A stretch of DNA of 64,000 nucleotides from the NCBI RefSeq assembly GCF_013410375.1, contig NZ_JACCFL010000001.1:2728001-2792000 (forward strand), in the 5' to 3' direction. Each line of letters starts with the position of its first letter. Position 1 is the first letter of the stretch. The translations under genes were made by a program, and so were the position numbers. The DNA is from Leifsonia shinshuensis (GTDB lineage Bacteria; Actinomycetota; Actinomycetes; Actinomycetales; Microbacteriaceae). Positions 28,229-37,924 of this stretch are shown piece by piece. Under the pieces are notes generated by a model that made no database searches, had not been told where the DNA came from, and saw only the letters and a list, made by a program, of their open reading frames with translations.

Positions 28229-29599
28229 TCAGCCCTCGAGGACGAAGTCCGCTCCGAGCAGCTCGAGCTTGGTGATGAACTTCTCGTACCCGCGGCTGAT
28301 GATGCCGACATTGCTGACGGTCGAGCGGCCCTCCGCCGACAGGGCGGCGATGAGGTGGCTGAACCCGCCGCGCAGGTCGGGGATCTCCACGTCGGCGCCC
28401 TTCAGTTCCACCGGGCCCATGATGACCGCGGAGTGGTTGAAGTTGCGCTGGCCGAAGCGGCAGTCGTGGCCGCCGAGGCACTCCTTGTGGACCTGGATCT
28501 TCGCGCCCATGTCGATGAGCGCGTCGGTGAAGCCGAAGCGCTGCTCGTAGACGGTCTCGTGGACGATCGACACGCCCTCGGCCTTGGTCAGCGCGACCAC
28601 GAGCGGCTGCTGCCAGTCGGTCATGAAGCCGGGGTGCACGTCGGTCTCGATCACGACGGGCTTCAGCGCGCCGCCCGGGTGGAAGAAGCGGATGCCGTCG
28701 TCGTGGATCTCGAACGCGCCGCCGACCTTGCGGAAGACGTTGAGGAAGGTCAGCATCTCCGGCTGGCGGGCGCCGCCGACGTAGATGTCGCCGTTGGTGG
28801 CCAGCGCCGCGGCGGCCCAGCTGGCGGCCTCGTTGCGGTCGAACAGCGCGGTGTGGCTGTAGCCGACCAGCTTGTCGACGCCCTCGATGCGGATCACGCG
28901 GTCGGTGTCGACCGAGATGATCGCGCCCATCTTCTGCAGGACGTTGATCAGGTCCATGATCTCGGGCTCGATCGCCGCGCCCTTGAGCTCGGTGATGCCC
29001 TCGGCGCGGACGGCCGTGAGCAGCACCTGCTCGGTGGCGCCGACGCTCGGGTACGGGAGCTCGAGCTTGGCGCCGTGCAGGCCCTCGGGGGCCGTCATCC
29101 GGATGCCGCTGGGGAGCTTGTCGACCACGGCGCCGAACTTGCGCAGCACCTCGAGGTGGTAGTCGATGGGGCGGTCGCCGATGCGGCAGCCGCCGAGGTC
29201 GGGGATGAACGCCTCGCCCAGGCGGTGCAGCAGCGGCCCGCAGAACAGGATCGGGATGCGGCTGGAGCCGGCGTGGGCGTCGATGTCGGCCATGTGCGCC
29301 GACTCGACCGCGCTCGGGTCGAGCAGGAGCTCGCCCTCCTCCGCGCCGTCGGTGACCTTGACGCCGTGGACCTCGAGGAGGCCGCGGACGACCCGGACAT
29401 CGCTGATGTTCGGGACGTTCCGCAGCACGCTCGGGCCCTCGCCCAGGATGGCGGCGACCATCGCCTTGGTGACGAAGTTCTTGGCGCCGCGCACCTCGAT
29501 GCGGCCCTTGAGGGGGATTCCGCCGTTGATCGTGATGCGGTCGGCCGTGAGGCCGACGTGTGCGCCTGCCGCCTGGGAGTCCTGAAGAAGCGAGTTCAA
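28229..29599 (-). CDS. murA: UDP-N-acetylglucosamine 1-carboxyvinyltransferase-like MurA
   Basis: 456 residues. EPSP-synthase-like fold; first committed step of peptidoglycan synthesis. The catalytic, fosfomycin-reactive Cys is present at residue 138 in GGCRIGDRP, with the substrate motif [14 protein letters not shown] at 37-50. It is somewhat longer and more divergent than canonical MurA, with a 15-residue N-terminal extension. Start codon is TTG, overlapping the leuD stop (TTGA), so translation probably depends on coupling. Confidence 0.93.
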
Positions 29600-30195
29600 A
29601 TTTTCACCGGGAGTGTCTTGGGCCGCCAGCTGGCGCGAGCGGCTTCGTATTCGGAGATGCGCGCCTCGTCGCGCAGGGTCAGAGCGATGTCGTCCAACCC
29701 TTCGAGCAAACGCCAGCGAGTGTAGTCGTCGATGTCGAAAGACACCTGGACCCCACCGACGGTCGCAGTCTTGGCAACCAGGTCCACCGTCGCGGATATT
29801 CCCGGCTCGGCTTCGATGGCTGCCCAGAGCCGCTCCGCGTCCTCCTCGGTGATGATGCCGGTGAGCAGGCCCTGCTTGCCCGAGTTGCCCCGGAAGATGT
29901 CCGCGAACCGCGGGCTCAGGACGACCCGGAAGCCGTAGTCGCGCAGCGCCCAGACGGCGTGCTCGCGGGACGAGCCGGTGCCGAAGTCGGGCCCGGCGAC
30001 GAGCACGCTCGCGCCCTGGTAGGCCTCCTGGTTGAGGATGAACTCAGGATCCTTGCGCCACTCGTGGAAGAGTGCGTCGTCGAAGCCGGTCTTGGTGACC
30101 CGCTTGAGGAACACGGCGGGGATGATCTGGTCGGTGTCGACGTTGGACCGGCGGAAGGGCACGGCCACGCCGGTGACGGTCTCGAACTTCTCCAT
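29596..30195 (-). CDS. leuD: 3-isopropylmalate dehydratase small subunit
   Basis: 199 residues, typical. Swivel domain of the aconitase-like isomerase in leucine synthesis. The start [26 protein letters not shown] and the GTGSSREHA loop are diagnostic. ATG overlaps the leuC stop by one base (TGATG). Downstream murA overlaps by four bases, so the leucine genes and cell-wall genes share a transcript. Confidence 0.98.
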
Positions 30196-31655
30196 CAGGC
30201 GCCCACCTTCTCTCCAGCGTTGGTATCGGCTTCGTCGTGCTCCAGGTCCCACGGGCTGGACAGCGTGCCGCGGATGGCCGTGGCCGCCGCGACCAGCGGC
30301 GACACGAGGTGGGTGCGGCCGCCCTTGCCCTGCCTGCCTTCGAAGTTGCGGTTGGAGGTGGAGGCGCAGCGCTCCCCCGGCGCGAGCTGGTCGGGGTTCA
30401 TGCCGAGGCACATGGAGCAGCCTGCGAACCGCCACTCGGCGCCGAACTCCTCGACGATCTTGTCGATCCCCTCGGCCTCGGCCTCGATGCGCACGCGGGC
30501 GCTGCCGGGGACGACCATGACGCGCACGCCATCGGCCTTCTTGTGCCCCTTGATGACGGAGGCGAAGGCGCGGAGGTCCTCGATGCGGCTGTTGGTGCAG
30601 GAGCCCATGAACACCGCGTCGACGGGGATGCTCTTCATCGGCGTGCCCGGCGCCAGGTCCATGTACTCCAGCGCGCGCTCGGCGGCGGCGCGGGCGTTCG
30701 GCTCGGCGATCGCGGCCGGGTCCGGGACGGCCTCGCTCAGCGAGACGCCCTGGCCGGGGTTCGTGCCCCAGGTCACGAACGGCTCGATCTCGGCGGCGTC
30801 GAGGTAGACCTCGGCGTCGAAGACCGCGTCGTCGTCGGTCACGAGCGTGTTCCAGTAGGCGACGGCCTCGTCCCAGTCCGCGCCCTCCGGGGCGTGCGGG
30901 CGACCCTTCAGGTAGGCGTAGGTGGTCTCGTCGGGCGCGACCATGCCCGCACGGGCGCCGGCCTCGATCGACATGTTGCAGATCGTCATGCGGCCCTCCA
31001 TCGAGAGGGCGCGGATGGCGCTGCCGCGGTACTCGAGCACGTAGCCCTGGCCGCCGCCGGTGCCGATCTTCGCGATGACCGCGAGGATGATGTCCTTCGC
31101 CGTCACGCCGGGACGCAGCGTCCCCTCGACGGTGATGGCCATCGTCTTGAACGGCTTGAGCGGCAGGGTCTGCGTAGCGAGCACGTGCTCGACCTCGCTG
31201 GTGCCGATCCCGAACGCCATTGCGCCGAACGCGCCGTGCGTGGAGGTGTGCGAGTCGCCGCAGACCACGGTGATGCCGGGCATGGTGAGGCCGAGCTGCG
31301 GGCCGACGACGTGGACGATGCCCTGCTCGACGTCGCCCAGCGAGTGCAGCCGGACGCCGAACTCCTCGGCGTTGCGGCGCAGCGTCTCGATCTGGGTGCG
31401 GCTGGTGAGGTCGGCGATCGGCCGGTCGATGCCGATCGTCGGCGTGTTGTGGTCCTCGGTCGCGATGGTGAGGTCGGGGCGGCGGACCGGCCGCCCCGCC
31501 ATGCGCAGGCCGTCGAACGCCTGCGGGCTGGTCACTTCGTGGACCAGGTGGAGGTCGATGTAGATCAGGTCCGGCGTGCCGTCCTCACCCTTCACGACCA
31601 GGTGGTCTCGCCACACCTTCTCCGCCAGGGTCAGCGGACTGTGCTGCGTCGTCAT
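30195..31655 (-). CDS. leuC: 3-isopropylmalate dehydratase large subunit
   Basis: 486 residues. Holds the [4Fe-4S] cluster: Cys in [12 protein letters not shown] and the pair in [11 protein letters not shown]. Also the [22 protein letters not shown] segment. Converts 2-isopropylmalate to 3-isopropylmalate together with LeuD. ATG preceded by AAGGAG. The 114-base region upstream contains a leucine-rich leader peptide and a hairpin, suggesting control by leucine supply. Confidence 0.98.
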
Positions 31656-31701
31656 CTCGGTACTCCTTGAGCTTCGTTCACGGTTCAGCCGTCGACGGAC
31701 T

Positions 31702-31740
31702 CCGCGGCGAGGGTGGCCTGAGGATTAGGACTCGCCGCGG
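31702..31740 (-). promoter_or_regulatory. Candidate attenuator hairpin of the leuCD leader
   Basis: Segments 31702-31711 and 31731-31740 are perfectly complementary (CCGCGGCGAG with CTCGCCGCGG), separated by 19 bases. The proximal arm overlaps codons 10-13 of the leader peptide, just after the leucine run, so a ribosome stalled on those codons would mask it. A second small palindrome, CCGTCGACGG, lies downstream at 31688-31697. No U-run follows, so whether it terminates transcription or acts on translation is unknown. Confidence 0.5.
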
Positions 31741-31769
31741 CGGCTAAGGAGGAGCAGACCCGCGAACAC
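31725..31769 (-). CDS. leuL: Putative leucine leader peptide (leuL) upstream of leuC
   Basis: Reading from GTG at 31769 gives the 14-residue peptide MFAGLLLLSRRGES and TAA at 31725-31727. Codons 5-8 are CTG CTC CTC CTT, four leucines in a row. The GTG follows a TAATCT box by six bases with no ribosome-binding site, the same leaderless layout seen at many genes here. A 10-bp hairpin begins inside the last codons. Position, codon content and structure match classical leucine attenuators; this is an inference from sequence and is too short for routine gene calling. Confidence 0.7.
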   Translation of the reverse strand: MFAGLLLLSRRGES

Positions 31770-31775
31770 GGATTC

Positions 31776-31781
31776 AGATTA
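31776..31781 (-). promoter_or_regulatory. -10 box of the leuL-leuCD promoter
   Basis: Minus-strand TAATCT, six bases upstream of the leader GTG. It overlaps a GATAAT that could serve alternatively, shifted two bases. No clear -35 was recognised. Confidence 0.5.
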
Positions 31782-31849
31782 TCACCCGCCCTGGGGACAG
31801 GACGGACGGCTCGCGGCCGTCGGGCGCGCGCGGGCCGCTCGCGCGGCGG

Positions 31850-32590
31850 TCAGCTCCGGGCGGCGGCCGGACGCACCACGAGCACGGTGACGTTGTCGTG
31901 CCCGCCCGCCGCGACCGCGGCCTCCACCAGCACCCCGGCCGGATCGGCGGGGTCGCCGGCCAGGATCTCCGCGATCGTCTCGTCGCTCAGCTCGCGGGTG
32001 AGGCCGTCGGAGCAGACCAGGAAGGTCCGCGCCTGGTCCAGCGGGATCAGCAGGCTGTCGGTGTCCACGAAGTCCTCCGCGCCGAGCGCGCGGGTGATGA
32101 CGTTCCGCTCCGGGTGCACGGCCGCCTGCTCTGGCGTGATGAGGCCGGCGTCCAGGAGCTCCTGCACAGCCGAGTGGTCGGCGGTGAGCTGGGTGAGCGC
32201 GCGCTCGTCCCAGGAGTAGACGCGGGAGTCGCCGATGTTGACGACCATCCACTCCTCCGCGGCCCGCTCCGGCACCCGCACCCGCACGACGCCGGTGAGC
32301 GTGGTGCCCGCCACCGCCGCTCCGGTCTCCTCGGCGTCCGACAGCGCCCGCACGGCGGCGTTCGCCTCGTCGATCGCGGTGATGACTTCGTCCGGGGTCG
32401 GCGTCGTCCCGGCCGGGATTGTGCGGGCGAGGCTCTCGACCGCCGTCCGGCTGGCGACGTCGCCGCGCGCGTGACCGCCCATCCCGTCGGCGACGACGAA
32501 GACCGGGTCCTCCGCGAGGTAGCTGTCCTCGTTGACCTGCCGGACTGCTCCGGTGTCGCTGCGGGCGCTCACCTCGACGCGGGAAGTCAT
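31850..32590 (-). CDS. PP2C-family serine/threonine protein phosphatase
   Basis: 246 residues, a bare catalytic domain with no membrane helix. Metal-binding motifs are complete: NEDS at 20-23, ADGMGGHARGD at 34-44, SDGLTREL near 193 and GGHDNVTVLVV at the end. Related to PrpC/PstP, which oppose Hanks-type kinases, but no kinase gene is nearby. The ATG overlaps the terC stop as ATGA, so it is translationally coupled to TerC. Confidence 0.95.
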   Translation of the reverse strand: MTSRVEVSARSDTGAVRQVNEDSYLAEDPVFVVADGMGGHARGDVASRTAVESLARTIPAGTTPTPDEVITAIDEANAAVRALSDAEETGAAVAGTTLTGVVRVRVPERAAEEWMVVNIGDSRVYSWDERALTQLTADHSAVQELLDAGLITPEQAAVHPERNVITRALGAEDFVDTDSLLIPLDQARTFLVCSDGLTRELSDETIAEILAGDPADPAGVLVEAAVAAGGHDNVTVLVVRPAAARS

Positions 32591-37851: not shown

Positions 37852-37924
37852 TGACCCCAGCGGGATTTGAACCCGCGTTACCGCCGTGAGAGGGCGACGT
37901 CCTAGGCCGCTAAACGATGGGGCC
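37852..37924 (-). tRNA. tRNA-Glu (anticodon CTC)
   Basis: 73 bases folding into a complete cloverleaf: acceptor GGCCCCA/TGGGGTC, T-arm CGCGGGTTCAAATCCCGC-like, anticodon stem TCGCC/GGCGG with loop CTCTCAC, giving anticodon CTC at 37888-37890. The 3' CCA is not encoded. Reads GAG codons, the dominant Glu codon in this GC-rich genome. Confidence 0.95.

Follow-up and report, generated by a model that had tools for sequence, protein, structure and literature searches.

The question raised by this locus is whether the leucine-rich reading frame and the stem in front of leuC in Leifsonia shinshuensis form a regulatory leader and, if so, at which step of leuC expression such a leader would act. All of the sequence details given for the locus by the first-pass annotation (TAATCT box, spacing, GTG, 14 codons, run of leucine codons, TAA and 10-bp stem) were present on the minus strand of the window, i.e. 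the whole stretch of 64 000 nucleotides that was analysed. The leader is read as GTG TTC GCG GGT CTG CTC CTC CTT AGC CGC CGC GGC GAG TCC TAA, and its GTG lies 114 bases upstream of the leuC ATG (31655). Because the TAATCT box is placed six bases 5' of the GTG, the transcript is predicted to begin at the GTG or adjoining it. The leuC gene itself shows a best-segment identity of 74-94% across 80 named relatives. The features of the locus are collated in Table 1.

Table 1. Features of the leuC leader and of the genes that follow it, in window coordinates.
Feature	Position	Strand	Remarks
-10 box TAATCT	31776..31781	(-)	six bases 5' of leader GTG; from sequence
Leader ORF, GTG start, 14 codons MFAGLLLLSRRGES, TAA stop	31725..31769	(-)	from sequence
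Leader start and stop codons	GTG 31769-31767; TAA 31727-31725	(-)	from sequence
Leu codons 5-8, CTG CTC CTC CTT	31746..31757	(-)	proposed sensor; from sequence
Anti-Shine-Dalgarno arm CTCCTTAGC (codons Leu7, Leu8, Ser9)	31743..31751	(-)	5' side of base stem
leuC Shine-Dalgarno and 3' side of base stem, GCT-c-AAGGAG	31663..31672	(-)	from sequence, fold and duplex test
Stem H1, 5' arm CCGCGGCGAG	31731..31740	(-)	10 bp, perfect
Stem H1, 3' arm CTCGCCGCGG	31702..31711	(-)	partner of H1 5' arm
Pseudoknot H2, loop strand GGCC	31715..31718	(-)	4 pairs in the window, one G-U
Pseudoknot H2, 3' strand GGCT	31687..31690	(-)	pairs with H1 loop
leuC, isopropylmalate dehydratase large subunit	30195..31655	(-)	proposed regulated gene; ORF
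leuD	29596..30195	(-)	start overlaps leuC stop by one base (TGATG); Aconitase_C PF00694

The fold of the window's leader (-46.7 kcal/mol, z -1.58) was equalled in stability by 14 of 200 shuffles and is thus not unusual; the case for a regulatory leader is mainly a comparative one. No match at the element was returned by Rfam 15 at gathering thresholds, and with E values up to 5 the one match reached 17.5 bits, short of its threshold of 39.1, and lay on the opposite strand. The sole gathering-threshold match in the window is a tRNA gene (37852-37924, minus strand). No sigma-70 promoter was found at the locus by a consensus scan, a scan that demands a -35 hexamer. The attenuator of the enteric leu operon combines leucine codons in a leader peptide with a U-run intrinsic terminator. 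The window shares the leucine-codon leader with this system; by contrast, neither the U-run intrinsic terminator of a classical transcription attenuator nor any other terminator-like site was found in 31500-32000.

A closer counterpart is the LEU element, which was described in Actinobacteria at leuA and at one transposase gene (Seliverstov et al. 2005, PMC1262725). Its features recur in the window: a leucine-run upstream ORF, a base stem formed between leucine codons and Shine-Dalgarno sequence, and a pseudoknot, short in this case. An alternative internal helix is possible in the LEU element, and a candidate helix, which may or may not be the same one, can be drawn here. For the LEU element, as far as the accessible text of that paper goes, a terminator is not described. 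The two differ in the target, which is leuC here and leuA there; the whole words leuC, leuCD and leuD are absent from that text. The leuC position was taken as a new context of the LEU element and not as an argument against structural membership. The first-pass annotation had called the stem an attenuator-like hairpin. The 10-bp stem is real and conserved (see below), while its reading as an attenuator stem has been replaced by that as part of a LEU element. A transcription terminator lacking a U-run was likewise rejected, given that no site was found in the above interval and that the LEU structure explains the stem better.

The annotation had also considered a leader peptide devoid of a 5' untranslated region to be atypical. 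This is not upheld: the leuA leader leuL1 of Streptomyces lividans (MRFGLLLLSCRGEGL), as presented in the accessible part of PMC8079986, is reported to be leaderless and to have no typical Rho-independent terminator. Its peptide is very similar to that of the window leader, the difference again being the target, leuA instead of leuC. Mutations in the S. coelicolor leuA leader are cited in the 2005 paper as having some effect, unlike classical attenuation, and elsewhere as having no influence on regulation; a binding protein was favoured there, and ML1624 orthologues were named (PMC1262725, in its accessible text). Since the leucine codons also serve as anti-Shine-Dalgarno sequence, such mutations would alter both functions at once. 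Leaderless short ORFs with poly-cysteine runs, reportedly responding to cysteine, are said to occur in mycobacteria, to judge by the title of Canestrari et al. 2020. These leaders are likened to the window leader by description, RNA structure aside, with cysteine in the place of leucine. Cysteine genes are cited as being regulated by translation attenuation in the accessible part of PMC13236596. A literature search that covered mainly openly accessible papers, most of them by title and opening lines of the abstract, brought up no earlier description of a leuC-associated LEU element, and leuC looks new as a target; among the loci examined, LEU elements were placed before leuC in Microbacteriaceae only.

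For the comparison within the family, 147 of 150 leuC matches were used, the weakest three (second copies in G086 and G075, sole copy in G091) being left out. An alignment of 36 rows was prepared without L022, L024, L085 and L086 (long inserts), without L092 (decayed) and without the near-duplicates L087, L090, L098, L102, L104, L110 and L112; the decayed L107 was retained. The covariance model, R1, was built on 36 leuC leaders. In one genome of the genus, the matches L110 and L112 (G020:C1:4116517-4117990) overlap and belong to a single leuC gene split between different open frames, a frameshift or an assembly error.

A leader ORF with at least three leucine codons within five, together with a TAnnnT box six to seven bases before its start, was found in 26 of 28 genomes of the genus. 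The two exceptions, L092 (G027) and L107 (G003), belong to genomes of 2.6-2.7 Mb and have two leucine codons left and a stop codon that is apparently lost. In both, the stem and the Shine-Dalgarno complement are retained despite the two lost leucine codons, and the leuA leaders of the same genomes have three leucine codons and an intact stop. R1 matched 97 of the 147 family loci (65 of 100 plus 32 of 47; three of these genomes belong to the window's genus) and gave no match at the other 50. Among the 80 named loci, 19 were matched, all of them within the 27 Microbacteriaceae loci L004-L030 (Leifsonia, Agromyces, Microbacterium, Glaciibacter, Cryobacterium, Rathayibacter, Leucobacter, Terrimesophilobacter and a Microbacteriaceae MAG); none was matched among the remaining 53. 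Terrimesophilobacter and Rhodoluna are taken by us to be members of the family. At least two leucine codons within six were present in 95 of the 97 family elements (at least three in 86), and the -10 box stood six or seven bases ahead of the leader start codon in 92. The leucine leader peptide of leaderless type that had been proposed before leuC is thus kept within the genus, as is the box spacing across the family, and the comparison across Microbacteriaceae yielded conserved leucine codons along with compensatory changes in H1.

By eye, a decayed LEU element missed by R1 was seen upstream of leuC at L270 (G044; CTTAGCCGCCGCGACGAG). At L016, L217, L238 and L251, where leuC has no LEU element, a palindrome around GGTATACCAA lies near the promoter; it is possibly an operator for another regulator. 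The commonest 10-base words upstream of 46 unmatched leuC loci correspond to the leuC coding start (by eye, 25 words listed).

In the 36-row alignment, 99.7% of the H1 cells were paired, with two-sided changes at two pairs. All ten pairs were formed in 90 of 96 family elements, a count to be read with the placement of H1 by best pairing, a procedure that favours high counts. L247, for which the script found no stem, was omitted from the stem counts, and identical rows were merged to 94 for the pairing counts. H2 shows compensatory changes as well: it varies among relatives yet stays paired, mostly in one register (CAGGC/GCCTG, CCCCGGC/GCCGGGG, CAGATCG/CGGTCTG). In the window, the adjacent TCAG/CTGA was scored slightly above GGCC/GGCT by the script. 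The mean score of H2 strands with their own partners was 12.2, as compared with 10.0 (sd 0.43) after permutation, and it was reached in 0 of 5000 permutations (n=87), in permutation tests that, here and below, treat the elements as independent and leave relatedness uncorrected. Scores of at least 14 were obtained for 38 of 87 elements, against 17.2 expected with swapped partners.

Directly after H1 (31701-31699 in the window), an AG(T) is conserved (A in 75, G in 90 and T in 82 of 91 elements), for which the drawn structure holds no partner. This conserved unpaired motif, together with the retention of H1 and H2 beyond coding need, would suit a LEU structure that is recognised by a regulatory protein or a small molecule, with the role of the leader peptide confined to setting the fold; the S. 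coelicolor leuA codon mutations, cited as unfit for attenuation in the accessible text of PMC1262725, would suit it too. We nevertheless regard such recognition as unlikely, because a leucine run and a leaderless-type start, needless for a protein site, are found in nearly all elements, and because, according to the same text, the unpaired bases show no conservation of the kind that would form a ligand pocket.

The base stem connects the leader with the leuC ribosome-binding site. In the minimum-energy fold of the window's element, six Shine-Dalgarno bases are paired with the leucine-codon arm at a mean probability of 0.97. The leader:Shine-Dalgarno duplex averaged -13.0 kcal/mol for own partners, -11.9 kcal/mol for swapped partners and -10.2 kcal/mol for shuffled leaders, and the own value was equalled in 1 of 5000 permutations (n=87), so that complementarity exceeds that of swapped partners. 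Duplexes of -7 kcal/mol or better were formed by 81 of 87 own pairs, 90% of swapped pairs and 83% of shuffled leaders; in view of these near-equal rates the signal is a modest excess. The paired fraction of the base-stem cells was 79% in the 36-row alignment, for which RNAalifold predicted H1 only, with the base stem absent. A perfect 9-bp pairing of CTCCTTAGC with GCTAAGGAG was present in 14 of 45 leaders scanned, all from the genus. In a scan for the longest gapless helix, the helix of leucine codons and Shine-Dalgarno sequence did not come out on top at many loci, including the window, where the pairing contains a one-base bulge. As the leucine codons pair with the leuC Shine-Dalgarno sequence, control is more likely to be exerted on leuC translation.

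Control of transcription would require another arrangement, in which stalling on the leader selects either H1/H2 or an alternative helix and thereby sets Rho-dependent termination before leuC. The H1 5' arm can indeed pair also with the linker and the H2 3' strand (-13.0 kcal/mol versus -10.2 kcal/mol for shuffled partners), which amounts to a three-strand design. Own partners were, however, no better than swapped ones in this helix (2805 of 3000 permutations equal or better, 91 merged rows), i.e. no covariation was found. Together with the missing terminator-like site in 31500-32000 and with the leader:Shine-Dalgarno complementarity, which points towards translation, this makes transcription attenuation quite unlikely.

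The element before leuC is therefore best described as a real and conserved regulatory leader, and probably as a LEU element working by translational attenuation, which is the likeliest mechanism. Ribosomes would bind directly to a transcript that begins at the GTG. With leucine plentiful, the 14-codon leader would be completed and the ribosome would depart, whereupon the codons Leu7-Leu8-Ser9 would pair with the leuC Shine-Dalgarno sequence, H1 and H2 would stabilise this closed form, and leuC and the coupled leuD would be translated poorly. With charged Leu-tRNA scarce, the ribosome would wait at codons 5-8 and mask the anti-Shine-Dalgarno sequence, and leuC would be translated.

The choice of leucine codons agrees with this. 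In the leucine runs of 87 distinct leaders, CTT accounts for 58%, CTC for 32%, CTG for 9% and TTG for 1%, pyrimidine-ending codons making up 90%. The leucine codons of leuC, leuD and murA in the window are CTG (50%), CTC (48%) and TTG (2%), with no CTT. This bias fits a second role of the run as anti-Shine-Dalgarno sequence; rare codons acting as sensors would fit too. The effect of ribosome position was modelled with ViennaRNA without pseudoknots: the mean unpaired probability of the Shine-Dalgarno sequence was 0.29 for the free RNA, 0.50 when the A site held the first leucine codon and 0.38 when the ribosome had reached the stop codon (0.15, 0.45 and 0.18, respectively, in the window). In 50 of 95 elements openness increased by more than 0.2, and in none was there a decrease of that size; in the model the fold accounts for the opening of leuC by a leader-bound ribosome. 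The average profile is flat, staying at 0.44-0.50 for all ribosome positions between two codons ahead of the first leucine codon and eight codons past it; leucine specificity would therefore have to come from dwell time, and the ribosome-position model was rejected as proof of codon specificity. A constitutive ribosome loader, in which the leaderless ORF delivers ribosomes near leuC with no leucine sensing, would explain the rise in openness with a ribosome at nearly any leader codon and has a parallel in the upstream-ORF delivery discussed for mycobacteria (accessible part of PMC4633059), but is very unlikely given the conservation of the leucine codons, CTT and CTC especially, and the placement of this genome's copies at leuC, leuA and a leuA paralogue.

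The reach of the element was considered next to the gene order. Translational coupling of leuD is likely in view of its one-base overlap with leuC. The reading frames of leuD and murA overlap by four bases if murA begins at TTG, and the acyltransferase gene (plsC) overlaps the gene after it; the two genes following plsC are presumably gpsA and ddl. The first-pass annotation had extended leucine control to murA-plsC-gpsA-ddl. These genes do abut or overlap. However, leuC is followed by a murA match in 51 of the 80 named loci, both with and without the element: 24 of these lie outside the 27 Microbacteriaceae loci and have no LEU element, and 23 have an IclR-type regulator and no LEU element. 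The gene order is hence not specific to the element; in 31500-32000 no terminator was found through which an effect could reach the genes further on, and control of murA and the later genes was set aside as unproven.

Three R1 hits with E values of 0.001 or below are present in the window's genome, located before leuC (118 bits), leuA (95.5 bits, MYGLLLLSCRDES) and a second leuA-like gene, leuA2 (33 bits, MRSFELLLSRRGGA). By eye, the leuA2 element can form an H2 of 8 bp (GGACCGGC/GCCGGTCC). A fourth, weak hit (22.3 bits, E 0.06) is adjoined by neither a leuA nor a leuC match. In the eight further three-hit genomes of the family that were looked at, the third hit precedes a leuA paralogue in all eight. 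Outside Microbacteriaceae, 56 hits were found in 55 genomes, and all 22 loci examined among them precede leuA. In a tree of 157 distinct elements, the leuA2 copies were grouped (8 of 8, support 0.99), and leuC and leuA copies were not separated, the best split placing 99 leuC copies in a group of 141. Immediately 5' of the -10 region, CTTGTCTGAGGAGTTG occurs in seven of the nine leuA2 elements (G000:C1:3823945-3824071 (L145), L366-L370, L372-L374) and, with a single change, in one more; it is missing from L368 and from the region before the window's leuC copy. It is perhaps a further operator.

Beyond the family, leuC is accompanied by a protein. Of the 53 named loci L031-L083, 50 have near leuC a homologue of the IclR-type protein of the Pseudarthrobacter locus L031, whereas no such homologue was seen at any of the 27 Microbacteriaceae loci; the three loci in which it was not found in the examined DNA around leuC are L034 (an unclassified MAG), L075 and L079. 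The L031 protein is an IclR protein by Pfam, and from this and its position beside leuCD it was assigned to LtbR/NdgR. NdgR orthologues adjoining leuCD are described as its regulator, and leuCD of S. coelicolor lies next to NdgR, in the accessible part of PMC4340878. A genome search with the L031 query (E at most 1e-25) gave two weak matches (40-41% identity) among 150 genomes of Microbacteriaceae. Of the 111 genomes from elsewhere in the order, 107 had a match to the same query, as compared with none of the eight family members included in that search. The distribution of the element is thus complementary to that of LtbR/NdgR in the genomes sampled, and Microbacteriaceae seem to be without close relatives of this type of regulator.

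The simplest reading is that an RNA was gained in place of the protein, which it may replace in function. A fuller scenario seems to us evenly poised: the ancestor of Microbacteriaceae would have lost LtbR/NdgR, and leuC would have gained a copied LEU RNA, so that leuA, the leuA paralogue and leuC would form a regulon of paralogous leader-peptide RNAs, each with leucine codons doubling as the anti-Shine-Dalgarno sequence of its own gene.

A regulatory RNA whose mechanism was not settled in 2005 thus acquires a second target gene, and roughly two in three of the leuC loci sampled in Microbacteriaceae supply natural variants of it. With three diverged copies on one pathway in one genome, the idea that leucine codons pair with the Shine-Dalgarno sequence of the gene downstream becomes directly testable by swaps. 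Across the family, an RNA element thus occupies the place left vacant by a transcription factor that is widespread elsewhere, and caution is advised in transferring models of leucine control that are based on LtbR/NdgR to Microbacteriaceae.
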